64,000 bases of DNA, taken from the NCBI RefSeq assembly GCF_023657595.1, contig NZ_CP098323.1, positions 2,380,001-2,444,000 of the forward strand, written 5' to 3'. Shown piece by piece: positions 22,344 to 56,231 of this stretch. Under the pieces are notes generated by a model. That model was given only the letters and a program-made list of their open reading frames with translations. It ran no database searches and was not told the DNA's origin. The position numbers and the translations under genes were made by a program. Source of the stretch: Cytobacillus firmus. Lineage in GTDB: Bacteria > Bacillota > Bacilli > Bacillales > Cytobacillaceae. Position 1 is the stretch's first letter. Each line of letters starts with the position of its first letter.

Positions 22344-23309
22344 ATGAGAATCCTATTTATTACTTCAGGATATAAAGGCATTTATGACTGGTTTGAATCA
22401 TGGATTCATACTGAATTAATAAAAGACCATCAGGTGACTTTTTATACTTTTAGTCAGGGATTAAAAGATTTTGAAACGATTATACAAAATTTTAAACCAG
22501 AGCTTGCCTTAACAATCGTTGGCTACAAATTACCAAAAATAATAATTCAACTTCTAAATCAATATGGAATTAAAACTTCACTATGGCTGACAGAAGATCC
22601 CTATAATTTGGATCGTTCCATAGGCCTCATTAACGATTTTGAATATTTATTTACAATTGACACCGCAGCTCTTGAATATTATCAAAAAATAGGGCATAAG
22701 AAAGCTTACCACTTGCCGCTTGCTGCAAACACCGATGTTTTTAATCCCCAAAAGGTTGAAGAAGAATTCAAAAGTGATATTTGTTTCGTTGGTTACCCAT
22801 ATCCTGACCGTTTGAAAATTTTGGAATTTCTTTTGCTAAATACATCTTACAAGATTAGTGTTGTTGGAAATTGGAGCCGCTATTTACGAAATTATAGGCA
22901 AAATAAAAACCTAATAATCAATGAAGGATGGGTAGAACCTCCAAAAGTAGCAGACTATTATAACGGAGCCAAAATAGTACTTAATTCTCATCGGCCATCA
23001 AATTTGCGGCAAAACAAGAATAAGCTAGGAATTGTCGGAAAAACCATCAATAATCGTACATTTGATGTGGCGGCTTGTGCAGCATTTCAGCTTATAGAAT
23101 TTAAAGAAGATTTAGCAAACCATTTTGTTGAAAATAAAGAAATCGTAGCATTTAGAGATATGGAAGAACTAGTTGATAAGATTCATTATTATATGGCAGC
23201 TGATATAGAACGGACAAATATTGCAAATAAAGCCCGAGATCGTGTGTTAAAAGAACATACCTTTCAGCATAGGATCGATAAAATGCTTTCCCTAATTGGT
23301 AATTTCTAA
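22344..23309 (+). CDS. CgeB-like glycosyltransferase (GT4-type, DUF3880)
   Basis: A 321-residue GT-B enzyme like the spore maturation protein CgeB: N-terminal MRILFITSGYKGIYDWFESW, TSLWLTEDPYNLD (DUF3880-type), YHLPLAANTDVFNP, CFVGYPYPDRLKILEFL, INEGWVEPPKVADYYNGAKIVLNSHR and the donor-site end NNRTFDVAACAAFQLIEF. In B. subtilis cgeAB acts in the outermost spore layer. It likely transfers a nucleotide-activated sugar to a surface protein or glycan from the mother-cell cytoplasm. First gene of the decoration island; followed 73 bases later by a sulfotransferase gene on the same strand. Confidence 0.85.
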   Translation: MRILFITSGYKGIYDWFESWIHTELIKDHQVTFYTFSQGLKDFETIIQNFKPELALTIVGYKLPKIIIQLLNQYGIKTSLWLTEDPYNLDRSIGLINDFEYLFTIDTAALEYYQKIGHKKAYHLPLAANTDVFNPQKVEEEFKSDICFVGYPYPDRLKILEFLLLNTSYKISVVGNWSRYLRNYRQNKNLIINEGWVEPPKVADYYNGAKIVLNSHRPSNLRQNKNKLGIVGKTINNRTFDVAACAAFQLIEFKEDLANHFVENKEIVAFRDMEELVDKIHYYMAADIERTNIANKARDRVLKEHTFQHRIDKMLSLIGNF

Positions 23310-23382
23310 TTTGGTCATGCAGAATACATTAGGTAATAAATTTATAAACATTTTATAATACTCCAAAAAGGAGCTGTTGACT

Positions 23383-24045
23383 TTGGAAAAGAAGAGCAAA
23401 CTTTTCCTAGTTTTATGCCTTCATCGTTCAGGCTCTAGTGCAACGGCAGGTGTTATGCACCTTTTAGGAATTCATATGGGAGATAAACTCCTGACATCAT
23501 CCCCTTATAATCCAAAGGGCCATTTTGAGAATATGGAGTTTGTGACTATCAATCAAGAAATTCTGCAAACTGCCAAAGCTTCATGGAACAATCCTCCTAT
23601 TAACAAGAAAATAGAAGCTAAAATTTATACATTATCTAAAATGCGAGCTTTTCTTTCTGAAAATATAAAACCTGTTTGGGGAATTAAGGATCCCAGAACA
23701 TTATTTACTTTTGAAGTTTGGAAACCATTATTAGAAGAAGTGGCTGACATTACTTATGTATTTATACATCGGCCATTTGAAGCTTCGGTCCGTTCAATGG
23801 CAAATCGTGATCGTAAGGGAACTGGTAATGCATCGCTAATTTTAACTCCATATTTAAAAAACCTTTATCATTACCGGCATACCTTTGGGCTGCCTGCTGA
23901 AACAATTATTGATGTCTATTATGAGGACATGTTAAAAAACCCCGAGCCTTATGTTAGAAAGTTCAATGAAAAAATCGGAAATTCTCCAGGTTACCGACTT
24001 AAGGAGGTTAAAAATTTTTTAGATAAGGATTTAAAAAATTTCTGA
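23383..24045 (+). CDS. Sulfotransferase family protein (1)
   Basis: A P-loop sulfotransferase of about 220 residues. The 5'-phosphosulfate loop is LCLHRSGSSATAGVMHLLG (residues 11-29), GIKDPRTLFTFEVW follows near 108, and the 3'-phosphate element is VFIHRPFEASVRSMANRD. It would move sulfate from PAPS to a hydroxyl of a glycan or protein. The start is taken as TTG 23383, nine bases after AAGGAG; TTG 23377 is too close. Transcribed with the CgeB-like gene. Acceptor unknown. Confidence 0.82.
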   Translation: MEKKSKLFLVLCLHRSGSSATAGVMHLLGIHMGDKLLTSSPYNPKGHFENMEFVTINQEILQTAKASWNNPPINKKIEAKIYTLSKMRAFLSENIKPVWGIKDPRTLFTFEVWKPLLEEVADITYVFIHRPFEASVRSMANRDRKGTGNASLILTPYLKNLYHYRHTFGLPAETIIDVYYEDMLKNPEPYVRKFNEKIGNSPGYRLKEVKNFLDKDLKNF

Positions 24046-24144
24046 CAAATAGGTATTTCTCTTTAAAGTTACTTTTAACCCTTCTCCTTTCAGGGTAAAT
24101 CTTAATAGTAAGTAATATGAAATCCAAAATAAAAAAACACCTTT

Positions 24145-24470
24145 TCAAAGGAGGCCACTGAAAATCTGCCGATTTTTTGGTTTTCCTGGGGAGACCTGAA
24201 AGAAAAAAGCCTGCTTATTCGTTTTTATTTGGAATAAGCCCGGCTTTTTTCTTGTTTTCAGTTCTCTTTTTACTTTATATTTACCCAATTGCTTAAGTAT
24301 TCTTTTTAGATTGACCGTAAATATGATCATGGCGCCTTGTAATTCCAGGCCAATTAGATCCGAGGGTGTGGTACCTTCATACCCGTGTCTGTGTTTTTAA
24401 TCTGAATACGCTACATCACCGATCACTGCTTCAAACTGTAGAAAACAAAGAACAGCAGTTTCCCTCACAA
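24145..24470 (-). pseudogene. Probable decayed transposase fragment
   Basis: Minus-strand frames read AVIGDVAYSD-stop-KHRHGYEGTTP-DLIGLELQGAMIIFTVNLKRILKQLGKYK, which resembles the C-terminal end of an IS1182/IS4-like transposase with an internal stop and no upstream part. The resemblance is by eye and uncertain. It occupies the 24046-24716 gap together with a terminator and a dispersed repeat. Confidence 0.35.
24203..24250. terminator. Long bidirectional hairpin
   Basis: AAAAAAGCC-GCTTATTC pairs with GAATAAGC-GGCTTTTTT with one mismatch region; typical two-way terminator. Confidence 0.65.
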
Positions 24471-24533
24471 AAAGCAAGGAATTCTGCAGTTCCAGTTAGG
24501 CTAGGTTAAAAGTTATTAGATAAGTAGCACTAG

Positions 24534-24624
24534 GTTGATTGGAGCGGAAGGTGCGAGACTCCTGCGGGAGCAGCGGGACAGGTGAGCCCGGCGGAAAGCG
24601 GGCATCCTGTAGTGGAAATCAACC
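24534..24624. repeat. Dispersed Bacillaceae repeat, compact copy
   Basis: GTTGATTGGAGCGGAAGGTG starts and AGTGGAAATCAAC ends this 91-base element; the interior has CTCCTGCGGGAGCAGCGGG and GGCGGAAAGCGGGC. Same family as 2530-2717 and 63512-63553. Confidence 0.7.
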
Positions 24625-24716: not shown

Positions 24717-25592
24717 TTATTCACTCCTCTTTGCAACTATTCCTCTAAGAAAATACAATACTTCTTTTTCGAGGTCCTCTCGCTGTAATGCAAATTCAAT
24801 AATGGTTTTAAGGTATCCAAGTTTGTCGCCAATATCATAACTCTTACCATTAAAAACATGAGCATATACTGGCTCATATTTAAGCAGAGCTGAAATGGCA
24901 TCAGTTAACTGAATTTCATTCCCAACACCTGGTTCTTGATTTTCTAACAGATTAAATATCTTAGGAGTAAGGATGTATCTTCCAAAAATAGCTAAATTGG
25001 ATGGTGCTTGTTCTTGGGAAGGCTTTTCAATTAAACTTTGAATATTATAAACTGGTCCGTTTTCCTTTTCAACATCAACAATTCCGTATTTATGCACATC
25101 TGTTTTATCAACACACTTAATACCTATGATAGAATTCTGACATTTGTCGTACAACTCCATCATGTCCTTTAGGCAGGATTTTTTTTCTTCCACAAGAGTA
25201 TCTCCAAGTAAAACAGCAAAAGGTTCATTTCCAATAAACTTTCTTGCACACCATATTGCATGTCCTAATCCATTAGGCTCACTTTGACGGATATAATGAA
25301 TATTGGCTAACTGTGAAATCTTCCTAATTTCTCTTAATTCTTCTAGTTTTCCTTTTTTACTTAAAGTCTCCTCCAATAAAAAAGAAGAATCAAAATGATC
25401 CTCAATTGCTTTTTTCTCTTTCCCTGTAACAATAATGATGTCTTTTATGCCTGACTCCACTGCTTCCTCAATAATATACTGGATCGTTGGCTTATCAATA
25501 ATAGGCAGCATTTCTTTAGGCAAAGCCTTCGTTAACGGCAATAGCCTTGTTCCAAGACCAGCTGCAGGAATAACCGCCTTTCTAACTTTCAC
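24717..25592 (-). CDS. gtaB: UTP-glucose-1-phosphate uridylyltransferase
   Basis: A GalU/GtaB enzyme of about 291 residues: VRKAVIPAAGLGTRLLPLTKALPKEMLPI with the GLGTR-K nucleotide site, IQYIIEEAVESGIKDIIIVTG, LLGDTLVE and the sugar-site GVGNEIQLTDAI. It makes UDP-glucose, the source for the UDP-glucuronate/UDP-xylose genes at 51-54 kb and for glycosyltransferases here. The start is set at GTG 25592, where family similarity begins; an ATG 27 bases upstream is in frame. A B. subtilis-like cell would have another copy, so this one may be dedicated to spore-surface sugar. Confidence 0.93.
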   Translation of the reverse strand: MKVRKAVIPAAGLGTRLLPLTKALPKEMLPIIDKPTIQYIIEEAVESGIKDIIIVTGKEKKAIEDHFDSSFLLEETLSKKGKLEELREIRKISQLANIHYIRQSEPNGLGHAIWCARKFIGNEPFAVLLGDTLVEEKKSCLKDMMELYDKCQNSIIGIKCVDKTDVHKYGIVDVEKENGPVYNIQSLIEKPSQEQAPSNLAIFGRYILTPKIFNLLENQEPGVGNEIQLTDAISALLKYEPVYAHVFNGKSYDIGDKLGYLKTIIEFALQREDLEKEVLYFLRGIVAKRSE

Positions 25593-25865
25593 TATTCTAA
25601 ACACCTCCATTTGAAACAAACCTTACTTAGTTTAGATTATGGACTTATACTTCCTTTTGGCACGGCTCATGTACTACATTCATAATTTGGGTATGAGCGA
25701 TAGTAGCAAATGAGACAAGCACTAAATTTAATTTACTATGATTAACATAAAAATTCTTAGAGCCTGTTTCAAAGTAACTAAACAATGAGGCTGCAAAATA
25801 AATAACCACAAAATGAGATTCTAAAGAGGTTTAAAAAAGGGCACTATATAATCTGTCCAACCATA

Positions 25866-25958: not shown

Positions 25959-27455
25959 ATGAAACACAGTGACACTCAACCTAAATTTAATCTATTAAAT
26001 AATGATAAAAGTCATTTAGGAGATAGAGATGTATATAATTTCACAAATTCCATTATAAGAGATTTAAATAATAAGGATATATTGGAAATTGGCATTGGCG
26101 GAAAATATTCCAGGTCATCTCAGCTAACAGCGGGCAGTAAAAGTTATCAAACAATTGATCTGAAAACCTTCGATTTTATAAATGCAAATAATAGTTCTGA
26201 CCCAATATTAAATCTGGAATTAAAAGAAAAAATTCCTCTAACTGTTCAGGCTTTTGATGTAATTTTCATAAATGAATCTTTTGAACATCTTTCAACTTTA
26301 AAGATTGAAATTGCCCTGGAAAAAATAATAAAAATTCTTCGGCCAGGTGGATTGCTTGTTATAAGGACTCCTATCTGCAGTAATACGACTGATTCTGAAC
26401 ATAAATCCTCCTGCCCATGTAATAAACATTTCATATCTACCTTATTAAAAATTTGCTTAGAACATAATTTTATTTGTGCTAAGGCCGATAAGCGTTTGTT
26501 TGGATTTGTTCGGAGAAGTGAAATTAAGCATTTCGCAGCACCAAGAAGGAATAAGAATATAGACCGGTATATTTCTTTATTACAAAAACAAAAGCACCAT
26601 GCCGAGCCTAATAAAGAAGCAGGACGACTAATGATCGGCTGTGTAACAGAAAACAATGCAAAATATCAAAGGCAAACTTTAAATCTGATAAAATCAATTC
26701 GCTGGTTTGGAGGAAATATTGCTGGGGCAGATATATTTGTTTGCATAGTTGATGAAGCAGATGATGAATTTGTAAGGGAGCTTAAGAAATGGGGAGCCTT
26801 TGTACGGATAGTGAAACGGTTCAGTGAAGATCATCCGCAATCCAATAAACTAAGATTTTTCGAATTATCGGAAATTAACTATTATGATACGATTATGTTT
26901 TTGGACTGTGACACAATTATTGTTCAAGACCCTTTAAAATATATAGATGGGAAAAATTTCCAAGCAGAAATGGCTGCCGGTGCAACTGTACCGCATGAAT
27001 TGTTTAAAGAAATTTTTTATCATTACCAATTAAAAGTGCCCGAACGAGCATATAAGACAGCTTTATCAAGAATATCCACTATATGGTATTGTAATGCAGG
27101 TGTATTGATATTTCCGAAATCTATCCTGCAGCAATTTTTTCCTGTATGGAAGGAATACACCGAAGATCTTATAAATAATAAACATCTGCTAAAGGACTAC
27201 TTTAAGTTTTGCGAACAAGCTTCATTAACATTATCTTTTGTAAAAAACCCTGTCCCATTCAAGAAGCTGCCAATGAAAATGAATTTCCCCCTGGTTGGAC
27301 GCTATTTGCCTGAAATTCAACATTGCGACCCGGTAATTATTCATTATCATCATCGTTCTGATGAATCGGGTTTTATTCATGAGGTCACGAAAAGCCCATA
27401 TGCACAAAGACGGATTAAGGAATTTAACCAAATGTTAAAAAAACATGGCAGATAA
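25959..27455 (+). CDS. Methyltransferase-glycosyltransferase fusion (copy A)
   Basis: A 498-residue two-domain protein. Residues 1 to about 200 form a class I SAM methyltransferase-like fold: ILEIGIGGKYS, FDVIFINESFEHL, LRPGGLLVIRTP; the SAM loop is EIGIGG, less canonical than E-x-G-C-G. Residues 218-498 form a GT8-like glycosyltransferase with LMIGCVTENNAKYQRQTL, the metal site MFLDCDTIIVQDP and YCNAGVLIFPKSIL. It is paired in mirror image with 30152-31729, the two flanking three sulfotransferases. AAGAAAGGAG precedes the ATG. Substrates are unknown. Confidence 0.8.
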   Translation: MKHSDTQPKFNLLNNDKSHLGDRDVYNFTNSIIRDLNNKDILEIGIGGKYSRSSQLTAGSKSYQTIDLKTFDFINANNSSDPILNLELKEKIPLTVQAFDVIFINESFEHLSTLKIEIALEKIIKILRPGGLLVIRTPICSNTTDSEHKSSCPCNKHFISTLLKICLEHNFICAKADKRLFGFVRRSEIKHFAAPRRNKNIDRYISLLQKQKHHAEPNKEAGRLMIGCVTENNAKYQRQTLNLIKSIRWFGGNIAGADIFVCIVDEADDEFVRELKKWGAFVRIVKRFSEDHPQSNKLRFFELSEINYYDTIMFLDCDTIIVQDPLKYIDGKNFQAEMAAGATVPHELFKEIFYHYQLKVPERAYKTALSRISTIWYCNAGVLIFPKSILQQFFPVWKEYTEDLINNKHLLKDYFKFCEQASLTLSFVKNPVPFKKLPMKMNFPLVGRYLPEIQHCDPVIIHYHHRSDESGFIHEVTKSPYAQRRIKEFNQMLKKHGR

Positions 27456-27506: not shown

Positions 27507-28292
27507 ATGGCGTTGTTTAGATATTATAAAGATCAAGAGGTGAAAATTTTGGATAATAGTAAAGAATTGATTATTCATACTCATATCCCCAAAACAGGCG
27601 GAATGACTTTGCGGTCCATCGTAAATAAAAATTACGATAAAGAAAAAATGTTAACTAATGTTTTTTCTTCAAGTGTCTCGAAATTTAAAAAGGATATACA
27701 AGAAAAGACAGATATTGAATTTGTAACTGGCCACCACCCTTTTGGCCTTCATGAATATACAAATAGACCTTGCGCTTATATCACTATGCTTCGGGATCCA
27801 ATTGAAAGGGTTATATCCATGTATTATTACAATCTTCGCAAGGAAAATCACCCTCTCCATAAAAAGGTTAAACAACTAACCTTTGAAGAATTTATAAATG
27901 ATAAGGGGTTATCCCGCAGAACAATAAATCGGCAAACACAAAAAATAGTAGGAAGCTTAAACCCAAGAGAAGACGATCTGCAGAAGGCAAAAAACATTCT
28001 TAGTAAACATTACAAAGTAGTTGGCATAACAGAAATGTTCGATGAATCAATTTTTTTGATGAAAAAAGAACTTGGATGGCAAGATATTAGCTATGAAAGA
28101 AAAAATTATACAGCCGATCGCCCAACAAGAGAACAGTTTTCTAATGAAATTATTGAAAGAATAAAAGAGCTCAATCATATAGATATGCAGTTATACAAAT
28201 GGGCAAAAAGAAACTTAATGGAACGCTTAGAAACATTGGATAGCAGCACTAAGCAGGAATTGGAAAATTTTTTAAATAGAAATAAAAAATAA
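27507..28292 (+). CDS. Sulfotransferase, Sulfotransfer_2 type (2)
   Basis: About 261 residues, with the 5'-PSB loop HIPKTGGMTLRSIV that marks the heparan-sulfate 2-O/chondroitin sulfotransferase-like Sulfotransfer_2 family, FVTGHHPFGLH with the likely catalytic His, and the 3'-PB stretch ITMLRDPIERVISMYYY. An ATG at 27507 and a TTG at 27549 (AGAGGTG upstream) are both possible starts; the paralog next door favours a short N terminus. Tandem with the next gene, clearly from duplication. Acceptor probably a glycan (inference). Confidence 0.88.
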   Translation: MALFRYYKDQEVKILDNSKELIIHTHIPKTGGMTLRSIVNKNYDKEKMLTNVFSSSVSKFKKDIQEKTDIEFVTGHHPFGLHEYTNRPCAYITMLRDPIERVISMYYYNLRKENHPLHKKVKQLTFEEFINDKGLSRRTINRQTQKIVGSLNPREDDLQKAKNILSKHYKVVGITEMFDESIFLMKKELGWQDISYERKNYTADRPTREQFSNEIIERIKELNHIDMQLYKWAKRNLMERLETLDSSTKQELENFLNRNKK

Positions 28293-28354: not shown

Positions 28355-29068
28355 ATGAAAAATAACTTGCCTGCAGATGAATATCTTTTAATTTTCATGC
28401 ATATACCAAAAACAGGCGGAATGACATTGAAAAGAATTATTAAGAGGCAGTACCCGGATGATAGGATATTAAAAGACATTACAGACGGAAAAATCCAGGA
28501 ATTCAAAGAAAAGATGGAAGAACAAGATTTCAGCTTTGTATTTGGGCACCTTTCATTTGGGCTGCACCTTCACACCACCAAGCCTTGCACTTACATCACA
28601 ATGTTGAGGGAACCAATAGATCGAGTTATTTCGATGTACTATTATGTATTAGGCAAAGAAAACCATCCATTACACAATATTGTAAAGGAACTGTCATTTG
28701 AAGAGTTCCTTGATCATCCTGATTTGAAAAATCATACGAACAATATGCAGACCAAAAGAGTACTCGGCAAAAATACGTTAAAAACTTCTGATCTTGAACA
28801 AGCAAAATTAAATCTGCTAAATCATTTTTCAGTAATTGGCATAACAGAAATGTTTGATGATTCTATTAAGCTAATGAAAAAAAAATTAAATTGGAATGAC
28901 ATTTCGTATGTTAGAAAAAACCAAACGAAAAAAAGACTAAGCAGGGACCAAATTGATCAAAGATTAATAGAAAAGATAACCGAGAATAATAAGTTGGATA
29001 TACAATTATATAATTGGGCTAAAATTAAATTAGAGACTGATTTGAAATCTTCCAAAGATAACTTGTAA
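28355..29068 (+). CDS. Sulfotransferase, Sulfotransfer_2 type (3)
   Basis: A 237-residue paralog of the preceding gene: HIPKTGGMTLKRII, FVFGHLSFGLHLHT, TYITMLREPIDRVISMYYYVLGKENHPLH and IGITEMFDDSIKLMKKKL. The Arg/Asp in the 3'-PB region becomes Arg/Glu (LREP for LRDP), a mild change. CAAAGGAGAAG precedes the ATG. The 62-base spacing suggests one transcript with 27507-28292. Confidence 0.88.
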   Translation: MKNNLPADEYLLIFMHIPKTGGMTLKRIIKRQYPDDRILKDITDGKIQEFKEKMEEQDFSFVFGHLSFGLHLHTTKPCTYITMLREPIDRVISMYYYVLGKENHPLHNIVKELSFEEFLDHPDLKNHTNNMQTKRVLGKNTLKTSDLEQAKLNLLNHFSVIGITEMFDDSIKLMKKKLNWNDISYVRKNQTKKRLSRDQIDQRLIEKITENNKLDIQLYNWAKIKLETDLKSSKDNL

Positions 29069-29258: not shown

Positions 29259-30155
29259 TCAGAGGTTGGTAGAAAGCTGTTGTTTATACTTATAAAAGAG
29301 GTTATCATCAGGGAAAATTGAATTAAGATTTTCGCCGTTTTCAAGTACAAAATTAAACAAACTATTAATTTCATTTTTATTCAACCGTGTACTCCATAAC
29401 TCATTTCGATCTGGATTTATGTTTTTTAATAAGGAAACAGGAAGAATTGCAGGTAATCCTAGGAATTTAAGACACTTGGTGATGACCTTCTCCGGCTGTG
29501 AGACTAATTCCTCTTCTTTAACGATGAAAATCCGATCAGAAGAAATGGAATTTGCGAAACTTGAAATTGCTTTGTTTGTTTCATACCAATATTCTGCAAA
29601 ATATCTCACATCACCTCCTGGAAAACAACGCTGTCTATCAATATTGGCCGGTATGCTATTAAAAATGCATTCCCAGCAGCGAACTGTATCTGGATTCGTT
29701 TTTTCAGGCCAGTAATGAACCACTTTTCTGTTCAAAATTTTTTTTAGGCTTGCCGTTACACTTGGCATATCCCGATAGATCCAAATAAACTTAGCATCTG
29801 GAAATAATTCGTTAACAAACGGCAATTTGTTTCCCAGATGAGGATTTTTATTAAGAAATAAAGAGTTTTTCATTTTTTTATTTCCTTTATTTTTCCTCAT
29901 TTCTTCTTTAAATGCCTTCGTTAGCATTTCTCTCTGTCCTGGTTTTACATCTTTTTCGGTTAAGTGAGGACATTTGTGATCAAATGTTTTTGGTGATGCC
30001 ATTGGAACCCCTGCTTCCCTCGACCAAACTCTTCTTAACTCAAAAGGACAGTGGATAATATTGGGATGAGCCCCTAATAATTCAGCGAACATGGTGGTAC
30101 CGCTTCGCATGCAGCCGACTAAAAACACCGGAGTTTTAATTTTGCTTAATGTCAT
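29259..30155 (-). CDS. Sulfotransferase, Sulfotransfer_1/3 type (4)
   Basis: A 298-residue P-loop sulfotransferase: FLVGCMRSGTTMFAELLGAHPNI is a textbook 5'-PSB loop, and FIWIYRDMPSVTASLKK is the 3'-PB motif. The middle contains a Cys/His-containing insertion (YWPEKTNPDTVRCWECIF). Its ATG overlaps the stop of the upstream MT-GT fusion as ATGA, so the two are one operon and probably act on the same product. Different subfamily from the two convergent genes on its left. Confidence 0.87.
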   Translation of the reverse strand: MTLSKIKTPVFLVGCMRSGTTMFAELLGAHPNIIHCPFELRRVWSREAGVPMASPKTFDHKCPHLTEKDVKPGQREMLTKAFKEEMRKNKGNKKMKNSLFLNKNPHLGNKLPFVNELFPDAKFIWIYRDMPSVTASLKKILNRKVVHYWPEKTNPDTVRCWECIFNSIPANIDRQRCFPGGDVRYFAEYWYETNKAISSFANSISSDRIFIVKEEELVSQPEKVITKCLKFLGLPAILPVSLLKNINPDRNELWSTRLNKNEINSLFNFVLENGENLNSIFPDDNLFYKYKQQLSTNL

Positions 30156-31729
30156 GTTTGTTCCTCCTTATTGCGGTATTGATTAAGAAGTCTATTAAAA
30201 AGCTGTACTCTGTTCCTCGCTAAGTCACTGGAAGTTGCATCAGTAATAAATCCTTCTTCATCCACCCTGTTATGATAATGAATTATAACAGGGTCACAAT
30301 GAATAACTTTATGAAGTTTACTTTCCAGAAGATGAAAATTCATTTCCATCGGCAGTTTACTATATGGGATCGGATGAGCTGCAAATGCTAAAGTTAATGA
30401 TGCCTGCTCACAAAAGTTAAAATACCTGTCAAGCAAATATTTCATATCGATAAGATTAAGAGTGTACCCTTTCCAAATTGGATAAAAATCTTGAAGGATG
30501 CTCTTCGGAAATATTAAAACACCTGCATTACAATATAGTATCGTTGGTGTATTTGTGATCGTGGTTCTGTAATCTAACGGCAGCATATTCAATCGGAAAT
30601 GAGAAAAAAGCTTTTTGAAAATATAGTGTGGAACAGTTGGTCCTGCAGCAATTTCAGCCTGAAAATGAACTCCATCTATAAAAGGATACGGATCTTGGAC
30701 GACAAGTGTATCACAATCTAGAAGCATAACAGTGTCATAAAAATTAATCTCTTCCAGTTCAAACAGCCTCAATTTATTTGATTGGGGATGATCATCACTA
30801 AACCGTTTGACAATACGGACAAATACTCCTAATTTCTTTAGTTCATCAACAAATTCCCTATCTGCTTTATCGACAATGCATACAAAAATATTAGCACCTG
30901 CTGAACTGCCGCCAAACCAGCGAATAGATTGTACTAATCTAAGTGTCTGATCTCTATATTTTCTATCATTTTCTGTCACACAGCCGATAAGCAGGCGGCC
31001 CGCCCCCGGAACAACCTTATCTATTTCATCATCTTCATAGTATTCTTTCATTTCAAGCCCATGTTCACTTAATATTTTTTGATGGAAAGCCATGTACAAT
31101 TCTTGCTGTTCCTTCTGAAAATTATGAAGGTCAGCTTTCAATACCATTCCAAAACAATTGTTATTAAAGCTTGCCAAAATAAACCCCTGCTGCAGACATG
31201 TCCTTAAAATGGTTCCAATTGTTTGCTTATGGCATCGATATTCTTTGGTGAATTTTAGTGATTCACCTATTTCTAAAGCATTGGGGCTATCAAATAATGT
31301 GGTTTTTAATACGATAAAGCCGCCTTGTCTCAGCATTTTCCTTATTTCTCCCCAAGTTTCTTCCATTTCAAAAACGGGAGTATGTTCTATTATTTGGTTT
31401 AGGATTATAACATCGTATGTTCTTCCCGTGTTAAGATTTTCTGGTTCGCAATGTTCATTTCTCCACCATAAACATTTAGGTCCTTCATAAAAGTTCTTTT
31501 TAGTTACTCCACCGTCATTTATATTGGTCGTTCCTTTCAAAGATAGCTTTGTATGATTCCCCTTGTGACATCCTATCTCGAGGGTTTTTTTATTTTGCAG
31601 CTCTGGGATGAAAGTATCTAAAAAATTATATAAATCATTACATGACTCGGAAAATTCCTTACGATTATGTTCTCCATTAGCTTTACCAACAAAATCCTTC
31701 AACGGCATTTTTGCAGGAATCCCTTGCAT
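30152..31729 (-). CDS. Methyltransferase-glycosyltransferase fusion (copy B)
   Basis: Second copy of the fusion, about 525 residues. The methyltransferase part has KKTLEIGCHKGNH, YDVIILNQIIEHTP and LRQGGFIVLKTTLF; the GT8-like part has RLLIGCVTENDRKYRDQTLRLVQSIRWFGG, the metal site VMLLDCDTLVVQDP and YCNAGVLIFPKSIL. The SAM loop EIGCHKG is more canonical than in copy A. Start ATG 31729 has GGGGAGAG upstream; a frame from 31747 is open too. The sulfotransferase gene follows with a four-base overlap. Confidence 0.82.
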   Translation of the reverse strand: MQGIPAKMPLKDFVGKANGEHNRKEFSESCNDLYNFLDTFIPELQNKKTLEIGCHKGNHTKLSLKGTTNINDGGVTKKNFYEGPKCLWWRNEHCEPENLNTGRTYDVIILNQIIEHTPVFEMEETWGEIRKMLRQGGFIVLKTTLFDSPNALEIGESLKFTKEYRCHKQTIGTILRTCLQQGFILASFNNNCFGMVLKADLHNFQKEQQELYMAFHQKILSEHGLEMKEYYEDDEIDKVVPGAGRLLIGCVTENDRKYRDQTLRLVQSIRWFGGSSAGANIFVCIVDKADREFVDELKKLGVFVRIVKRFSDDHPQSNKLRLFELEEINFYDTVMLLDCDTLVVQDPYPFIDGVHFQAEIAAGPTVPHYIFKKLFSHFRLNMLPLDYRTTITNTPTILYCNAGVLIFPKSILQDFYPIWKGYTLNLIDMKYLLDRYFNFCEQASLTLAFAAHPIPYSKLPMEMNFHLLESKLHKVIHCDPVIIHYHNRVDEEGFITDATSSDLARNRVQLFNRLLNQYRNKEEQT

Positions 31730-48266: not shown

Positions 48267-48296
48267 TTAATCTCACCTCCTTTCTATCAATCAATA

Positions 48297-48323
48297 TATA
48301 TTATGAATGTTTTAATAGGATGT
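48297..48323 (-). promoter_or_regulatory. Sigma-K promoter of beta-helix gene 3
   Basis: AC (48322-48323), 16 bases, CATAATATA (48297-48305): full consensus. Confidence 0.8.
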
Positions 48324-48449
48324 ATCGGACGAACGTGGACAAGTTATTAAAATGTGCTTTTAGAGGATTATTAATTGCCCGTCGAAAAAGATAGGAAAAA
48401 TACTATGAGTGATTTCCGACTTATTAAGAGTAGAAAAAAGAAAAAAGAA

Positions 48450-48498
48450 AAAACTGACTCTGTAAAATTCATTTTTTCAATGAATATTGAGACAGCTT
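48450..48498 (-). terminator. Terminator after beta-helix gene 4
   Basis: GCTGTCTCA-ATTCATT / AATGAAT-AGAGTCAG stem followed by TTTTTTC on the minus strand. Confidence 0.65.
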
Positions 48499-48551
48499 CT
48501 TCGTTTTAGTCCTGTTATCTTACCTTGATCTTGCAGGTGATATTCAATACT

Positions 48552-49577
48552 TTAGGAGCAGAGTCCTGGAGGGGAACTGGTTTGACAATCGTTTTCATCA
48601 AACGTGTTATTCTCATCAGCCGGGTCATCTGCTTGAATGTCCGGTGTATTGCCGCTGAGTGTATTCTCACGAACAGCGTTGTCATTTGCAGTGGAGGTTA
48701 AAAGAATACCAGGTCCTACGTTCTTTTTCACCAAGTTCTGATCTACAATGTTCTGATCCGAGTCACTATCTAGCTCAATGCCTGTAAAGGCGTTCTTCTT
48801 TACTTTATTGGCGATGACCTTGTTGTTATCTCCGCCTGCTGCATCAATTCCATCTTCGTTATTATTTTTTATATTGTTATTAAAAATTAGGTTATTTTGA
48901 AAGCCAGTGAGGTCGATTCCATCGTTTGTATTTCGATTCGCATTATTGCCAATAATGAGGTTTCCATCCGCAAGCACAGAGATCCCATCATCCTCATTCC
49001 CTTTTGAAACATTATCAATGACATAGTGTGGACCGCTTTCCAATTCAATCCCTGAGAGTGCGTTACTTAATACTCTGTTTCTTAAAGCGAGATTGTTGAA
49101 ACCATGCAGAACAATTCCAAAATCTTCATTTTCTATAAACTTACTCTCGATTACATAGTTGCTGCTCCCATCTATGTGAATTCCATCGGAACCATTCTCG
49201 TTGGATTCAATTTTAATAACTAAATTACGATCAGCAGCTGTATAGATTCCGATATTTCCATTGTTTTGTACTTCAAGATCACGGATGATGTTGTCACTTG
49301 AATTGACTAGAATTCCATTAACACTGTAGTCTCTTATCGTAAAACCGGCGATGGTTACAAAGCTTGAGGTTACAACGATTCCATCCCCTGGGGAACCTGT
49401 CCCATCGAGTATTGTCTGTCCTTTTCCTGCACCCAGAAGTCTAAGTCGATCCAATCCAGGTGGAATAACTACATTCTCTTGAAAAACACCTGCAGCTACC
49501 CGGATTGTATCTCCAGGATTTGCTCCAATGAAAGCTGTGTTAATACTGCCGCCAGCAGGAACATTAATTACTGCCAT
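48552..49577 (-). CDS. Right-handed beta-helix surface protein 4
   Basis: A 341-residue paralog with the standard cap (VFQENVVIPPGLDRLRLLGAGK) and tail. Middle coils are distinct, e.g. NIGIYTAADRNLVIKIESNENG and IELESGPHYVIDNVSKGNEDDG. The tail region reads ADDPADENNTFDENDC, a small variation. The 5' portion of the gene lies in the duplicated block. Own promoter at 49608-49634. Confidence 0.82.
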   Translation of the reverse strand: MAVINVPAGGSINTAFIGANPGDTIRVAAGVFQENVVIPPGLDRLRLLGAGKGQTILDGTGSPGDGIVVTSSFVTIAGFTIRDYSVNGILVNSSDNIIRDLEVQNNGNIGIYTAADRNLVIKIESNENGSDGIHIDGSSNYVIESKFIENEDFGIVLHGFNNLALRNRVLSNALSGIELESGPHYVIDNVSKGNEDDGISVLADGNLIIGNNANRNTNDGIDLTGFQNNLIFNNNIKNNNEDGIDAAGGDNNKVIANKVKKNAFTGIELDSDSDQNIVDQNLVKKNVGPGILLTSTANDNAVRENTLSGNTPDIQADDPADENNTFDENDCQTSSPPGLCS

Positions 49578-49607
49578 CTAATCTCACCTCCTTTCTATCA
49601 ATCAATA

Positions 49608-49634
49608 TATATTATGAATGTTTTAATAGGATGT
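49608..49634 (-). promoter_or_regulatory. Sigma-K promoter of beta-helix gene 4
   Basis: AC (49633-49634), 16 bases, CATAATATA (49608-49616): full consensus. Confidence 0.8.
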
Positions 49635-49747
49635 ATTGGACAAAAGTGGACAAGTTATTAAAATGTGCTTTTAGAGGATTACTAATAGCCCTTTGAAAAA
49701 TGGAAGGAAAATTCATAAGTGATTTCCAAATAATTAAGAGGAGAAAA

Positions 49748-49785
49748 AAGAAAAAGCTGACTCTGTAAATTATTGAGACAGCTTC
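49748..49785 (-). terminator. Terminator after beta-helix gene 5
   Basis: Same stem and T-rich tail as at 47158-47195, from the duplicated block. Confidence 0.75.
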
Positions 49786-49830
49786 TTCGTTTAGTATCTA
49801 AATTTGAACATGCAAGTGATATTCTATCCT

Positions 49831-50853
49831 TTAGGAGCAGAGTCCTGGAGGAGAGCTTGTTTGACAATCGTTTTCATCAAACGTGTTATTTGTATCAGCT
49901 GGGGTATCTGCTTGAATGTCCGGTGTATTGCCACTGAGTGTATTCTCTCGAACAGCGTTGTCATTTGCATCCGATGTTAAAAGGATTCCAGGACCAACGT
50001 TCTTTTTCACCAGGTTTTGGTCTACGATGTTTTCGTCAGAGTCACTATCCAGTTCAATTCCTGTAAACGCGTTTTTCTTTACTTTATTGCCCACAATGCT
50101 ATTGTTATTTCCGCCTGCTACATCAATTCCATCCTCGCTGTTATTTTTCACATTGTTATTAAAAACTAAGTTATTTGCAAACTCAGATAGATCGATTCCA
50201 TCGCTGGTGTTGCGGTTAAAGTTATTCCCAAAGATGAAGTTACCATCGGAACCAACGTCGATCCCATCATCACCGTTGTTTTTGGAAACATTATCGATAA
50301 CAATGTGTCCTCCTATTACTTCAATACCTTCAGAAGAGTTTCCAATTACCTTGTTACTTAATGCTAGATTGTTTACACCATGCAAAACAATGCCTATGCT
50401 TTCATTTTCTTTAAACTTACTTTCGATCACATAGTTACTGCTTCCATCTATGTGAATACCATCAGAACCATTCTCGTTTGATTCAACATTGATAAATAAG
50501 TTACGATCAGCTGCAGTATAGATTCCTAGATTTCCATTGTTTAGAACTTCAAGATCGCGGAGGATGTTGTCATTTGTATTGACTAGAATCCCATTAGAAC
50601 TATAGTCTCTAACTGTAAATCCAGCAATTGTTACAAAAGCTGAACCCACTGTAATACCCTCACCACCGGAACCTGTCCCATCCAAAATTGTCTGGCCGAT
50701 CCCAGCTCCAAGAAGTCTGAGGCGATCCAGTCCAGCAGGAATGACAACATTTTCTTGAAAAACGCCTGCCGCTACACGAATTGTATCTCCAGGATTAGCT
50801 CCAACAAAAGCTGCGTTAATACTGCCGCCAGCAGGGACATTAATTACTGCCAT
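49831..50853 (-). CDS. Right-handed beta-helix surface protein 5
   Basis: A 340-residue paralog, one residue shorter in the coil region. Standard cap; coils such as LEVLNNGNLGIYTAADRNLFINVESNENG resemble copy 4, while the C-terminal half equals copy 3 exactly, so the gene is a mosaic. It is the first of the array in transcription direction, but each gene has its own promoter. GGAGGTGAG precedes the ATG. Confidence 0.82.
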   Translation of the reverse strand: MAVINVPAGGSINAAFVGANPGDTIRVAAGVFQENVVIPAGLDRLRLLGAGIGQTILDGTGSGGEGITVGSAFVTIAGFTVRDYSSNGILVNTNDNILRDLEVLNNGNLGIYTAADRNLFINVESNENGSDGIHIDGSSNYVIESKFKENESIGIVLHGVNNLALSNKVIGNSSEGIEVIGGHIVIDNVSKNNGDDGIDVGSDGNFIFGNNFNRNTSDGIDLSEFANNLVFNNNVKNNSEDGIDVAGGNNNSIVGNKVKKNAFTGIELDSDSDENIVDQNLVKKNVGPGILLTSDANDNAVRENTLSGNTPDIQADTPADTNNTFDENDCQTSSPPGLCS

Positions 50854-51195: not shown

Positions 51196-52119
51196 ATGAA
51201 GGTACTAGTTACAGGGGGACTGGGCTTTATAGGGTCGCATCTTGCAGACCGCTATGTGGACCTCGGTTATGAAGTGATTATTATGGATAATCTTTCAAGC
51301 GGTACACTAGCTAATCTGAATCCTAATGCCCGCTTTTTTTCAATGTCTCTGTTAGATAAAGAAGTCTCTGATCTATTAAGAAAGGAAAAACCAGACATTA
51401 TTAATCATCACGCAGCACAAGTAAATGTAAGAAATTCTGTCGCTGATCCCTTATTCGATATTGATACGAATTTGCTAGGAACAGTTAAGCTATTGGAAGC
51501 AGCTGGCCAGGCTGGTGTTAAAAAGTTTATTTTCTCTTCATCGGGAGGTACGGTATACGGTGCAACACCAAATCTGCCAACTTCCGAAGAATACAAAACA
51601 AATCCCATTTCCCCATACGGAATAAATAAGCTTGCATCTGAGTATTATATTGATTTCTACGCAAAATTATATGGGTTTCAATCGGTTATCTTACGTTACT
51701 CAAATGTATATGGAATCCGTCAAAATCCATTATCCGAGTCTGGTGTAATTTCAATTTTTGCACATAGAATAAAAAATCACTTGCAGCCAGTTATCTATGG
51801 TAATGGAGAGCAAGTCCGTGATTATATTCATGTCAGTGATGTTGTAAATGCGAATATAATGCTTAGCCAATTAGATTCCTCTTTATATGGAACTTATAAC
51901 GTAGGAACAGGTAAAGGCACTTCTTTAAATAAGCTTCTCACCTTCTTTTATCAGATTTTTCCAGATGCCAAGTCACCGATATATAAAGATGCTAAGGAAG
52001 GCGACTTGTTATTCAATGTACTATCTATTAATAAACTAGCTTCTTTAGGTTGGTCTCCCAAATTAACCCTCCAAGAAGGAATTAATCAACTTTGTCAAAT
52101 ACAGGGGGATATAACATGA
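51196..52119 (+). CDS. NAD-dependent epimerase (UDP-glucose 4-epimerase-like)
   Basis: A 307-residue SDR: VLVTGGLGFIGSHLADRYVD, NHHAAQVNVRNSV, FIFSSSGGTVYG, SPYGINKLASEYYI (Tyr-x3-Lys) and RYSNVYGIRQNP. It fits the UDP-glucose/UDP-glucuronate 4-epimerase group; followed by Ugd and UDP-xylose synthase, it could act on UDP-Glc, UDP-GlcA or UDP-Xyl. The stop overlaps the ugd ATG (ATGA). Exact substrate not decidable. Confidence 0.85.
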   Translation: MKVLVTGGLGFIGSHLADRYVDLGYEVIIMDNLSSGTLANLNPNARFFSMSLLDKEVSDLLRKEKPDIINHHAAQVNVRNSVADPLFDIDTNLLGTVKLLEAAGQAGVKKFIFSSSGGTVYGATPNLPTSEEYKTNPISPYGINKLASEYYIDFYAKLYGFQSVILRYSNVYGIRQNPLSESGVISIFAHRIKNHLQPVIYGNGEQVRDYIHVSDVVNANIMLSQLDSSLYGTYNVGTGKGTSLNKLLTFFYQIFPDAKSPIYKDAKEGDLLFNVLSINKLASLGWSPKLTLQEGINQLCQIQGDIT

Positions 52120-53444
52120 AGATTTGTATTATAGGTGCGGGCTATGTGGGTTTGGTCACCGGTACATGTTTTTCCGAATTAGGATATGATGTAGTTTGTG
52201 TCGATCATAACCCTGAAATAGTGAAAGAGTTAAATAATGGGAAAATCCCCATCTATGAACCTGGATTAGAGGAAATGGTTAAGAAAAATGCTTCAGACGG
52301 ACGTTTAACTTTTACTACTAATATCTATAAAGCTATACAATCAAGTTTGTTTATTTTCATTGCTGTTGGAACTCCTTCTGCTGAGGACAATTCTGCAGAT
52401 CTCTCTTATGTATTTAATGCAGCCGAACAAATAGGCACCTATTTGAACTCTTACTCCATTATTGTTAATAAATCGACTGTTCCAATTGGAACAGCGGAAA
52501 GAGTAATGGGTATTGTTAGGCACACTCTTAATAAGAGAGATTTATGTGAGTTGGATTTTGACATTGTCTCCAACCCTGAGTTTTTGAGGGAAGGCAAGGC
52601 GATAAAGGACTTTTTAAACCCAGACCGTATCATAATAGGCAGTGATAATCCTAAGGCTGCCAATCATATGAAAAAACTTTACGAACCTATTACACGTAAT
52701 GGTCATCCGCTGCTTGTAATGGATATTCCTTCAGCTGAACTTACTAAATATGCAGCAAATGCCATGTTGGCAACTCGCATTAGTTTCATAAATGAAATAG
52801 CTGGAATATCGGATGCATTCGGAGCTGATATCCAAATGGTTCAAGAAGGAATCGGTTTAGATCATCGAATCGGGCAATCTTTTTTATCCCCAGGAATAGG
52901 ATACGGAGGCTCTTGTTTTCCAAAGGATGTTAAGTCATTAATAAAAACTGCTTCGGATAAGAATATTCCCACACCCATACTGGAATCAGTTGAGAAAGTG
53001 AACCATCGCCAAAGGAAAAAATTATTTGAGATGATTGTTGACCAGTTCGGTGAGTCAAATCTATCAAAGCTAAAATTTGCAGTATGGGGGTTAGCATTTA
53101 AACCAGAAACTGATGACATCCGTGAAGCACCTTCAATTGAAATCATTCGATTGTTAATTAGGCATGGTGCAGAAGTACATGCAAGTGACCCTATTGCAAA
53201 TCATAAAGTACGGAAAGTTTTTGATGATGATAAAATAAAATACTTTCAAGACCCTTATTCAGCCATTTCAGGAACAGAGGCTTTAATCATTTGTACAGAG
53301 TGGCCTCAATTTCAGCAAGCGGATTTAGAAAGAATAAAGAAGCTTCTTAAAATGCCAATCATATTTGACGGACGTAATATTTATAATCCTAAGGAAATGA
53401 AAGAGGCTGGATTCATTTACAGATGTATAGGGAGGAAGGCATAA
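52116..53444 (+). CDS. ugd: UDP-glucose 6-dehydrogenase
   Basis: About 442 residues: MKICIIGAGYVGLVTGTCFSELGYDVVCVD (NAD loop), FIAVGTPSAEDNSADLSYV, FDIVSNPEFLREGKAI, ELTKYAANAMLATRISFINEIA and GIGYGGSCFPKDVKSL with the catalytic Cys. Oxidises UDP-glucose to UDP-glucuronate. ATG 52116 is chosen (TuaD-like start, AGGGGGA upstream). The stop is immediately followed by the ATG of the decarboxylase gene. Confidence 0.96.
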   Translation: MKICIIGAGYVGLVTGTCFSELGYDVVCVDHNPEIVKELNNGKIPIYEPGLEEMVKKNASDGRLTFTTNIYKAIQSSLFIFIAVGTPSAEDNSADLSYVFNAAEQIGTYLNSYSIIVNKSTVPIGTAERVMGIVRHTLNKRDLCELDFDIVSNPEFLREGKAIKDFLNPDRIIIGSDNPKAANHMKKLYEPITRNGHPLLVMDIPSAELTKYAANAMLATRISFINEIAGISDAFGADIQMVQEGIGLDHRIGQSFLSPGIGYGGSCFPKDVKSLIKTASDKNIPTPILESVEKVNHRQRKKLFEMIVDQFGESNLSKLKFAVWGLAFKPETDDIREAPSIEIIRLLIRHGAEVHASDPIANHKVRKVFDDDKIKYFQDPYSAISGTEALIICTEWPQFQQADLERIKKLLKMPIIFDGRNIYNPKEMKEAGFIYRCIGRKA

Positions 53445-54377
53445 ATGAAAACCAAAAAAATTCTTATCACGGGGGGTTCTGGGTTTTTAGGTTCTCATTT
53501 ATGCCGTTCCCTGTTACAACAAGGTCATGAAGTAATTTGCATCGATAATTTATATACAGGACGAAAAGAAAATATAGCAGATCTAATAAGAAATAAGCGT
53601 TTTACATTTATCCTGCATGATATTGAGCAGCCAATTGATATTATAGCAGACGAAATCTACCATCTTGCATGTCCTGCATCCCCTCCCCACTATCAGCTTG
53701 ACCCAGTTAAAACATTAACCACTAACTTTATTGGATCTATGAATCTGCTTGAACTAGCAAAAAAGTATAAAGCAAAGATACTATTCGCCTCAACAAGTGA
53801 GGTATATGGAGACCCCCTTATTCACCCACAAAAGGAATCTTATTATGGGAATGTCAATTCCATTGGGCCAAGGGCTTGTTACGATGAAGGCAAAAGATGC
53901 GCTGAGTCATTATTCTTTGAATATTTTCGGCAGCATCAAGTGAATATACGTGTGATCCGCATCTTTAATACGTATGGTCCTGGGATGGCACTAAACGACG
54001 GAAGAGTCGTCAGCAACTTTATCCTTCAAGCCTTGAAGGGAGACGATATAACTGTTTATGGTGATGGAAGCCAAACAAGATCATTTTGCTTTGTAGACGA
54101 TCTCATTACTGGAATGATTTCCATGATGAATCATACAGATGGTTTTCCAGGTCCGGTTAATTTAGGAAATCCGGCAGAAGTTACTGTCATAGATTTAGCG
54201 AAAAAAATAACCAATCTAATAGGCAAATCTGCAAAAATCACCTTTTTACCAATTCGACAAGACGATCCTTCCCGCAGAAAACCAGACATCACTCTTGCAA
54301 AGGACTTATTAGGTTGGATGCCCACTGTTCCCCTGGATGAGGGTCTAAAAAAGACAATTGAGTATTTTAGAAATTAA
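53445..54377 (+). CDS. UDP-glucuronate decarboxylase (UDP-xylose synthase-like)
   Basis: A 310-residue SDR of the UXS type: [19 protein letters not shown], the diagnostic [48 protein letters not shown] (Tyr-x3-Lys) and [10 protein letters not shown]. It decarboxylates UDP-GlcA to UDP-xylose. Directly after ugd, forming the pathway UDP-Glc to UDP-GlcA to UDP-Xyl. A terminator follows. Confidence 0.92.
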
Positions 54378-54387
54378 AACAGCAGAT

Positions 54388-54427
54388 AAGGCATCACAAT
54401 AATAAATTTTTTACTGTGGTGCCCTTT
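54388..54427 (+). terminator. Terminator after the UDP-sugar operon
   Basis: GGCATCACA and TGTGGTGCC with a 16-base T-rich loop, then CTTT; it separates the operon from cysC-sat. Confidence 0.6.
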
Positions 54428-54459
54428 CCAATGGGATACAGGAAAGGAGAATTCTAATA

Positions 54460-55086
54460 ATGGCTGTGAACGAAAATGATAAAAACATTATCTGGCATCA
54501 TTCCACGATAAAAAAAGAAGATAGACAAAAATTAAATGGCCACAAAAGTTTAATGATTTGGTTCACGGGTTTATCCGGTTCAGGAAAATCCACTATTGCA
54601 AATGCTCTTCAGCATGAATTATACAAAAACAATGTAAGTGTATATTTATTAGATGGGGATAACCTTAGGCATGGCATAAATAGTAACCTATCTTTTTCTT
54701 CAGAGGATAGAAAAGAGAATATAAGAAGGACAGCTGAAATCGGCAAACTTTTTGTAGATGCCGGGATTGTTGTGCTTGCTGCTGTTATTTCTCCTTTTGA
54801 AAAAGATCGGTTAAACGCAAGAAAAATATTCCCAGCTGAAGAATTTATTGAAGTTTATGTGAAATGTTCACTGGAAGAGTGTGAAAAACGAGATCCTAAA
54901 GGTCTTTATAAAAAAGCAAGAAATGGAGAGATAAAACAATTTACAGGTATTGACCAGCCTTATGAAGAACCCGAAAATCCAGAAATCGTTCTTGATACCA
55001 ATCAATTATCACTTGTCCAATCTGTAGAGCTGCTTTCTTCTTATATTTTCGAAAAGGTTGGTCTCAAACAAAATGCAAAGGAGTGA
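54460..55086 (+). CDS. cysC: Adenylylsulfate kinase
   Basis: A 208-residue APS kinase: [17 protein letters not shown] (P loop), [38 protein letters not shown] and [20 protein letters not shown], all in place. It phosphorylates APS to PAPS, the donor for sulfotransferases. AAAGGAGAA precedes the ATG. The sat start lies just after its stop, so the pair is one operon. No PAPS reductase or sulfite reductase gene is nearby, which supports use in sulfation. Confidence 0.96.
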
Positions 55087-55091
55087 TTCAA

Positions 55092-56231
55092 TTGCCATTA
55101 AGTGTTCCACATGGCGGGAGATTAATCAATCAAATAAACTTAAACCTAGATGCCTCTGATATAACTGGAGAAATAGAAATGGACTCTATGGCACTGTCTG
55201 ACTTAGAGCTAATTGCCAATGGGGCATACAGTCCGATTACCGGTTTTCTAGGAAAAGAAGACTATGAATCTGTACTATATAATTTAAGGTTATCAAATGG
55301 GGCAGTATGGAGTATCCCCATTACCCTCCCTGTTAGTGAAAAAGCAGCGGAGAATCTAAAAGTTGGGGAAAAAGTTAAGCTTAAATATGAAAACATTGTT
55401 TATGGTATATTAGATCTTAAAGAAATTTTTTTCCCTGATAAAACAGAGGAAGCAAAAAAAATTTTTCAAACAACAGATCACAATCACCCAGGTGTAAAAA
55501 AGCTTTTTGAACGTCCTAATGTGTATTTAGCTGGCCCTATTACTTTAACGAAGCTTCCACCCAAAAAAGCTGATTTTATAAAATACTATAAAACTCCTTT
55601 AGAAACCAGAAGTGAATTCGAAAAGAATGAATGGAAAACAGTTGTAGGTTTTCAAACCAGGAATCCTATACACCGTGCCCACGAGTATATTCAAAAGTCA
55701 GCTTTGGAAATAGTTGATGGACTGTTCTTAAATCCTTTAGTTGGGGAAACAAAATCTGATGATATTCCAGCGAATATTCGAATGGATAGTTATAAAGCAT
55801 TATTAAAAAACTATTATCCCCATGATAGGGTATATTTAGCGGTTTTCCCTGCTGCCATGAGGTATGCTGGACCAAAAGAGGCTATTTTTCATGCCCTAGT
55901 GCGAAAAAACTTTGGCTGTACCCATTTTATTGTAGGAAGAGATCATGCTGGAGTGGGTAATTATTATGGAACTTATGATGCACAAAAAATATTTACACAA
56001 TTTAGTGCAGAAGAAATCGGAATTGTGATTCTCTCCTTTGAACATAGCTTTTATTGTACTAAATGTGAAAATATGGCTTCAAGCAAAACGTGTCCCCATA
56101 ACAAGGAAGACCATCTGCATTTATCGGGAACGAAAGTTCGAGAAATGCTGCGGAAAGGAATTACTCCACCTTCACAGTTCAGTCGCCCGGAAGTAATTAA
56201 AATATTAATTGAAGGTTTAAAGAATTCGTAA
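55092..56231 (+). CDS. sat: Sulfate adenylyltransferase (ATP sulfurylase)
   Basis: A 379-residue ATP sulfurylase of the Bacillus Sat type: [11 protein letters not shown] start, [18 protein letters not shown] (QTRNP and HRAHE active-site motifs), [20 protein letters not shown] (GRDHAG) and a zinc-like CTKC-x9-C end region. It makes APS from sulfate and ATP. Start TTG 55092 has AAAGGAG eight bases upstream; a GTG at 55083 overlaps that site. Order cysC-sat is one transcript ending in a terminator. Confidence 0.96.

Follow-up and report, generated by a model that had tools for sequence, protein, structure and literature searches.

The window analysed here, 64,000 nucleotides of Cytobacillus firmus DNA (RefSeq assembly GCF_023657595.1, contig NZ_CP098323.1, positions 2,380,001 to 2,444,000), belongs to a complete genome of 4.98 Mb in which SpoIVA is present. 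Its positions 22344 to 56231 hold an island in which five sulfotransferase genes (ST1 to ST5) stand together with a cysC-sat pair, an SLC13 permease gene and genes for glycan and sugar-nucleotide synthesis; an earlier note, drawn from the letters alone, had proposed that through it the mother cell sulfates the glycan of the spore coat or exosporium. The five sulfotransferases that it named were recovered in three Pfam families, each above the curated cut-off: PF13469 with ST1 (23377..24045, plus strand) and ST4 (29259..30155, minus strand, 93.7 bits), PF03567 with the heparan-sulfate-sulfotransferase-like ST2 (27507..28292, plus, 41.8 bits, and 43 bits to PF06990) and ST3 (28355..29068, plus, 54.3 bits), and the Stf0 family PF09037 with ST5 (43455..44300, minus, 63.5 bits). 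ST1 passes barely (28.6 bits against 27), and its ortholog in the relative G036 scores 23.1 bits, under the cut-off. PF03567 was found in none of 14 control genomes and in 32 of the 193 genomes of the family, so that its occurrence is neither chance nor universal.

In the alignment of the ST2/ST3 family, ST3 is 49% identical to ST2, and eight positions are invariant across 22 aligned rows: H26, K29, T30 and G32, which we take to form the 5'-phosphosulfate loop, and R96, P98, S104 and Y106, presumably the 3'-phosphate motif. A profile made from the 22 relatives matches heparan sulfate 6-O- and 2-O-sulfotransferases, animal enzymes that act on a secreted polysaccharide. An AlphaFold2 model of ST2, built on 39 sequences, reached a predicted local distance difference test score of 91.8; the top Protein Data Bank (PDB) match of the model in Foldseek was the heparan sulfate 2-O-sulfotransferase 4ndz (E 1.2e-8, TM-score about 0.57), and ST2 as modelled is a protein of the sulfotransferase fold. 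The likeness of ST2 and ST3 to these enzymes (PDB 4ndz, 5t03) lies in profile and fold; the identity is only 17-20%. The spore glycan genes could also be what they seem while the sulfate goes elsewhere, to a small molecule, a lipid or protein tyrosines: the solved structures nearest to ST4 are the tyrosylprotein sulfotransferases TPST1/2, its top PDB matches, and the Stf0 family of ST5 has trehalose 2-sulfotransferase as its named member (47.8 bits for ST5, far under the cut-off of 400). However, ST1 to ST4 share units with glycosyltransferase- or methyltransferase-type genes and ST2 and ST3 match polysaccharide sulfotransferases, and we regard such another target as improbable.

The supply of 3'-phosphoadenosine 5'-phosphosulfate (PAPS) would fall to a confirmed cysC-sat pair, both products above their Pfam cut-offs: CysC, the adenosine 5'-phosphosulfate (APS) kinase (54460..55086, plus; PF01583, 232.5 bits), and Sat, the ATP sulfurylase (55083..56231, plus; PF01747, 334.3 bits, with a PUA_2 domain). 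The statement of the earlier note that no assimilatory reductase lies nearby holds within the window. Beyond it, the genome has two matches to PF01507, at contig positions 2468809 and 2877976, and a separate assimilatory operon (about 2463552-2469447), which the note had passed over, has its near end 19.6 kb past the right edge of the window. This operon encodes a PAPS reductase, a PHO4-type permease, Sat, APS kinase, a tetrapyrrole methylase, CbiX and a SirC-type protein, and we take its cysH-cysP-sat-cysC arrangement to be of the B. subtilis type. One might thus see the island pair as a spare assimilatory set whose sulfotransferase neighbourhood is incidental, as it specifies the same two enzymes, with identities of 57% and 63% to their counterparts in the operon. 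Unlike in the operon, however, no gene for a reductase, a siroheme-type protein or a PHO4-type permease adjoins the island pair, which thus does not have the make-up of an assimilatory operon, where sat-cysC would stand with genes for a PAPS reductase and for sulfite reduction. In a maximum-likelihood tree calculated for 45 Sat proteins, all 17 cysH-linked Sats fall together in one clade (support 100/100), and the island Sat lies outside it, within a distinct group of 17 rows (98/95) to which three genomes of genus g18 and B. litorisediminis also contribute; some Sats without cysH fall outside that group (e.g. G040, G049, G050, G063, G064, G086). In addition, the second sat co-occurs with sulfotransferases, since at least two sat genes are carried by 15 of the 16 PF03567-positive genomes of the genus versus 4 of the 20 negative ones. 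Since no reductase accompanies the pair, a separate operon exists and the Sat tree sets the island Sat apart, we rejected the spare assimilatory set as very unlikely. Two sat genes are also held by the sulfotransferase-negative genomes G044, G047 and G048, and in G031, which is PF03567-negative with at least two sat genes, a PF13469 gene lies about 3 kb from a sat.

To the right of sat, a gene for a PHP-family phosphatase (62623..63417, minus), likewise passed over before, encodes a candidate phosphatase of 3',5'-ADP (PAP). Its best curated family is the 3',5'-nucleoside bisphosphate phosphatase NF041577, at 197.8 bits and thus below the equivalog cut-off of 400, and it matches PDB entries 7ug9 and 2yb1, its conserved His/Asp motifs aligning with those of 7ug9; 2yb1 and 7ug9 stand for the same known system, the PHP-family 3',5'-nucleoside bisphosphate phosphatase / RNase RNM. 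Island-type PHP genes, defined by an identity of at least 45% (the next matches reach at most 39%), are found in 20 of the 193 genomes of the family, the copy of G153 being broken, and in all 16 PF03567-positive genomes of the genus versus 1 of the 20 negative ones (G039; Fisher 2e-9 with kinship ignored); in G040 and G063 the identity is just 46-47%. A sat lies within about 10 kb at 16 of the 19 island-type PHP loci other than that of the window, and within 100 bases at eight, versus none of 20 paralogous PHP loci (20 of the 47 listed), which sets this gene apart from its paralogs. It is the linkage with sat and sulfotransferases that points to a PAP-phosphatase-like role, and this phosphatase probably removes PAP, the by-product of sulfotransferases, which is able to inhibit them (PMC8268124). 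The PHP clade tracks the non-assimilatory sat genes, and several relatives hold a second, distinct PHP paralog; the clade may serve to mark gene clusters for sulfation in Bacillaceae.

The SLC13/DASS permease with TrkA_C domains (38181..39959, plus), as the earlier note described it, is borne out by Pfam (PF03600, 208.1 bits; PF02080 TrkA_C, 77.8 bits in two stretches; PF00939, 56.5 bits). It shows 10 transmembrane-like segments in a hydropathy scan and scores 141.3 bits to TIGR00785, under the cut-off of 198.6, with PF03600 and PF00939 above theirs. Homologs with 39-45% identity adjoin cysC-sat directly in seven relatives, and sulfate is its candidate substrate.

Among the sulfotransferase genes, Pfam also confirmed the spsL, spsK, spsJ and spsI genes of the dTDP-rhamnose type (40111..43109, minus; PF00908, PF04321, PF16363/PF01370 and PF00483). 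The ST1 unit opens with a gene (22344..23309, plus) whose product is a glycosyltransferase by DUF3880 and PF13524, which the earlier note had labelled CgeB-like. The ST2-ST3 unit opens with a methyltransferase gene (25959..27455, plus; PF08241, 28.5 bits), and the ST4 unit contains a methyltransferase-like one (30152..31747, minus; PF08242, 27.4 bits, under the cut-off of 30), both with a sugar-transferase-like part by sequence reading. Further genes encode a nucleotidyl transferase, GalU-type by the same reading (24717..25619, minus; PF00483, 122.5 bits; 87-89% identity in relatives), three putative glycosyltransferases beginning at 31971, 32822 and 33914 (31971..34885, plus), read as such from sequence and lacking a Pfam match, a methyltransferase (34945..35871, plus; PF13489, 51.3 bits) and two family-2 glycosyltransferases (35730..37859, minus; PF13704). 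Directly before cysC lie genes for a galE-like epimerase, a UDP-glucose dehydrogenase and a presumed UDP-glucuronate-decarboxylase-like protein (51196..54377, plus), all three under their NCBIfam equivalog cut-offs. The hydropathy scan of the 40 main open reading frames (ORFs) between 16777 and 63417 revealed the SLC13 permease as the sole polytopic protein, and no flippase, polymerase or ABC exporter was found among them. Therefore, assembly and sulfation of the glycan most likely take place in the cytosol, and a capsule locus of the Wzx/Wzy or ABC type is disfavoured.

Spore-surface genes flank the island on the left, where the earlier note had overlooked them: a CotZ-family coat protein gene (14260..14946, plus; PF10612, 162.3 bits) and genes for three CsxC-family exosporium proteins, a (16777..17577, plus, 263.7 bits; DUF7852), b (17846..18643, plus, 271.3 bits) and d (21142..21909, minus, 170.6 bits), all three above the 135-bit cut-off of the CsxC family, NF045794 (CsxC_fam). 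Within the island, five tandem right-handed beta-helix proteins (44654..50853, minus), all with PF13229/PF05048 and without a transmembrane-like segment, are candidate structural proteins of the spore surface. They are 340 amino acids long each, and the matching stretch has one copy in G036 and none in G045.

The sigma-K-type promoters reported earlier were confirmed with the pattern AC-N-N14-17-CATANNNTA, which reflects the sigma-K consensus. Eight of the 26 upstream regions between 16595 and 54459 contain an exact site, compared with a mean of 0.48 in shuffled sequence, a count reached in none of 1000 shuffles; all five beta-helix genes have such a site 29-30 bases upstream, and when they are left out, 3 of 21 regions remain (shuffled mean 0.32, reached in 4 of 1000 shuffles). 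The unit of 22344 and ST1 has the exact site CACA-N16-CATATATTA, retained in three relatives with N15, and the unit of 25959, ST2 and ST3 has AACA-N16-CATATCCTA, with a near-identical site in three relatives; each of the two thus occurs in four genomes, that of the window and the three collinear ones, despite diverged surrounding sequence. ST5 has a site in the window as well, and the galE-ugd-uxs-cysC-sat unit shows just a conserved -10-like GCATAATATA, with one base different in G045. Our earlier promoter counts used 24 to 27 loci picked by eye, a choice that favoured several island-type matches and omitted some loci with at least two matches (e.g. L056, L059, L066, L071, L075). In that choice, 25 island loci gave 73 raw sites and 23 control loci 14. 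Counted in intergenic regions of at least 40 bases, with one duplicate locus dropped, there were 68 sites versus 14.5 in shuffles for the island loci and 7 versus 7.6 for the controls, that is, a 4.7-fold excess in 24 chosen loci, which becomes 3.9-fold when the collinear four are omitted, against 0.92-fold for the 23 control loci. An unselected test covered 53 loci, namely 40 loci, the window and 12 of the 16 Bacillota loci of a species-collection scan described below (four duplicates dropped): a site was present upstream of 15 of 56 sulfotransferase units, compared with 61 of 540 for the remaining units of these loci and 2 of 203 for those of the 23 control loci; with the collinear genomes omitted, 6 of 42 sulfotransferase units have one (p 4e-4). 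In loci from a draw of 398 genomes taken evenly from the class Bacilli, 4 of 17 sulfotransferase units have a site (p 3e-4), with a 3.2-fold intergenic excess over shuffles in 20 loci; the 64 non-Bacillota loci of the scan show no excess (5 versus 6.6). A locus of Candidatus Frackibacter sp. WG13 (L085), whose order we take to be Halanaerobiales, carries five ST2/ST3-type genes in about 8 kb, two units having sigma-K-type sites.

The island is collinear in G036, G045 and G060 over the extent fetched, and its parts recur rearranged in more diverged genomes, and in the commonest core (six genomes) spsIJKL and SLC13-cysC-sat are divergent and the PHP gene is convergent with sat. In Alkalihalobacterium elongatum, spsIJKL, a glycosyltransferase gene and a sulfotransferase gene form a close-packed unit in one direction, preceded by CACA-N15-CATATTTTA and diverging from SLC13-cysC-sat. 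From the scan of a collection of species genomes, the best 80 loci were kept; in the stretches fetched around them, some of which are short, CysC or Sat was present at 7 of 16 Bacillota loci versus 2 of 64 others, as judged with window proteins as queries, which lowers the sensitivity outside Bacillota. The seven are those of Bacillus sp. V59.32b, Paenibacillus sp. yr247, B. solitudinis, Virgibacillus sp. YIM 98842 (with Sat, SLC13 and CysC), B. litorisediminis, Aliibacillus thermotolerans and A. elongatum. In four loci of two other families (L201, L203, L208, L211), a divergent ST2/ST3-type gene adjoins a cysC-like gene, and no sat was found in the stretch. As to sporulation, SpoIVA is carried by all 21 class-draw genomes with the ST2/ST3 family versus 247 of the 377 others (p 4e-4 with kinship ignored); an occurrence mainly in non-sporulating relatives, which the earlier note had named as fatal to its proposal, is therefore not what the class shows. 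Alternatively, the island could be a sulfated capsule or exopolysaccharide locus of vegetative cells that merely neighbours spore-surface genes. Relatives of ST2 and ST3 among the best 80 loci occur in many other phyla, and the promoters of SLC13, cysC-sat and the sps genes are not clearly of the sigma-K type, as such a locus would allow; against it stand the lack of flippase, polymerase and exporter genes among the 40 main ORFs, with SLC13 as their lone polytopic protein, and the sigma-K-type sites before sulfotransferase units, two of them retained in four genomes. We consider a capsule locus unlikely.

Several observations weigh against a sporulation-dedicated sulfation system: (i) no strict sigma-K site precedes SLC13, spsI or ST4 in the window, and the ST5 site, TACC-N16-CATATAATA, is inexact in its one ortholog (G036); (ii) in the loci of relatives, the strict pattern was found before none of 6 SLC13 operons and before cysC in 1 of 14 cases, so that sigma-K control of their supply operons was looked for and not found; (iii) at 20 of the 21 sulfotransferase-positive class-draw loci (that of the window excluded), the surrounding 10 kb or so held CysC in 5, Sat in 1, and SLC13 or PHP in none; (iv) eight g20 sulfotransferase loci showed no linkage and no excess of sites (8 versus 6.6 shuffled), with a site before 0 of 7 sulfotransferase units; (v) three island-type PHP loci (G039, G040, G063) have no sat in the stretch fetched; (vi) the SLC13 gene of the window is 14 kb away from cysC and its product is only 39-45% identical to the permeases adjoining cysC-sat in relatives; (vii) DUF7852 genes, which include the CsxC family, are absent from G040, G049, G057 and G063, four of the 16 genus members positive for PF03567; and (viii) related genomes are non-independent samples. 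Linkage is thus rare class-wide, and no general linkage across Bacilli was found in these 20 loci: the full module belongs to this genus and some relatives, and is not that of every sulfotransferase-bearing spore-former. The distance and low identity also make the SLC13 role the least secure step, and the absences of DUF7852 weaken CsxC as a general acceptor of the glycan.

From the enzyme families, the gene linkage, the conserved promoters, the separate Sat lineage and the lack of an export gene among the main ORFs, all obtained by computation, we infer activities, substrates, acceptor and timing, and that spores carry sulfate, as follows. The SLC13 permease would import sulfate, and the Sat and CysC of the island, a pair separate from the assimilatory one, would convert it to PAPS. 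Soluble glycosyltransferases would assemble, from dTDP- and UDP-sugars, a methylated glycan containing rhamnose and probably uronate or xylose on spore-surface acceptors, possibly CsxC, the beta-helix proteins or another surface protein, and the five sulfotransferases of three families would sulfate different positions of it. The PHP phosphatase would turn PAP into AMP and so spare the sulfotransferases from inhibition, and export would be dispensable, since the cytosol of the mother cell is in contact with the spore surface and disappears when that cell lyses. That the mother cell makes PAPS late in sporulation and sulfates a spore-surface glycan, as first proposed, agrees with the exosporium and coat genes, the sigma-K-type sites of sulfotransferase units, the separate Sat clade and SpoIVA in 21 of 21 genomes, and is at odds with the lack of strict sigma-K sites at the supply operons of relatives; on balance, we find it partly supported and reasonably probable.

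Other genes nearby include one between the CsxC genes for an acidic protein of 791 amino acids (18717..21092, plus), rich in Ser, Glu and Asp and 77-84% identical in G036, G045 and G060, without a Pfam or NCBIfam family match. Between sat and the PHP gene lie genes for a HAD phosphatase, a Kdo-cytidylyltransferase-like protein and an HMGL-like aldolase, and a gene of unknown kind (56360..61575, minus). The cytidylyltransferase-like gene adjoins that of the 535-residue HMGL-aldolase-like protein (57177-59688, minus), both being present in G060 at 90-91% identity, while G036 and G045 have in this position just a cytidylyltransferase at 37-38%; the two may make and activate an unusual sugar acid. 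NosD-like and multicopper-oxidase genes left of the island (8188-10767, minus) occupy the same place in G036 and G053.

Among the closest known systems are the B. subtilis sps glycan genes, where the same spsIJKL-type genes make dTDP-L-rhamnose, with expression in the mother cell under sigma-K control (PMC7439481). Cytosolic glycan build-up would parallel what is presumed there for the B. subtilis mother-cell Sps products. Unlike the island, that system shows no sulfation by text search, "sulf" occurring once in the part searched, for the phenol-sulfuric method (PMC7439481). CsxC was identified as a cysteine-rich clostridial exosporium protein in Clostridium sporogenes, and the part of that text searched contains "sulf" 0 times (PMC4942563). 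In the open-access literature, searched by titles and abstract starts and with most subscription papers and preprints outside its scope, we found no description of sulfation or sulfotransferases of bacterial spores; the parts of the island are of known kinds, and we came across no account there of their combination or of the PHP-sat partnership.

Altogether, we would give even chances to a complete sporulation-dedicated sulfation cycle, with SLC13 import, a Sat/CysC lineage of its own, three sulfotransferase families and the PHP phosphatase, through which the spores of Bacillaceae would acquire a surface glycan that is sulfated and heparinoid-like. The island suggests a testable role for a clade of PHP phosphatases and for a second sat-cysC lineage, which annotation can easily take for an assimilatory one. 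If the proposal is true, spores would be decorated chemically with sulfate, for which the literature searched gave no precedent, and the island would be a source of cytosolic bacterial sulfotransferases related to heparan sulfate enzymes. Spore-surface sugars affect adhesion and hydrophilicity, according to work on B. subtilis, and a sulfated spore glycan, being strongly anionic, should alter how spores stick and disperse.

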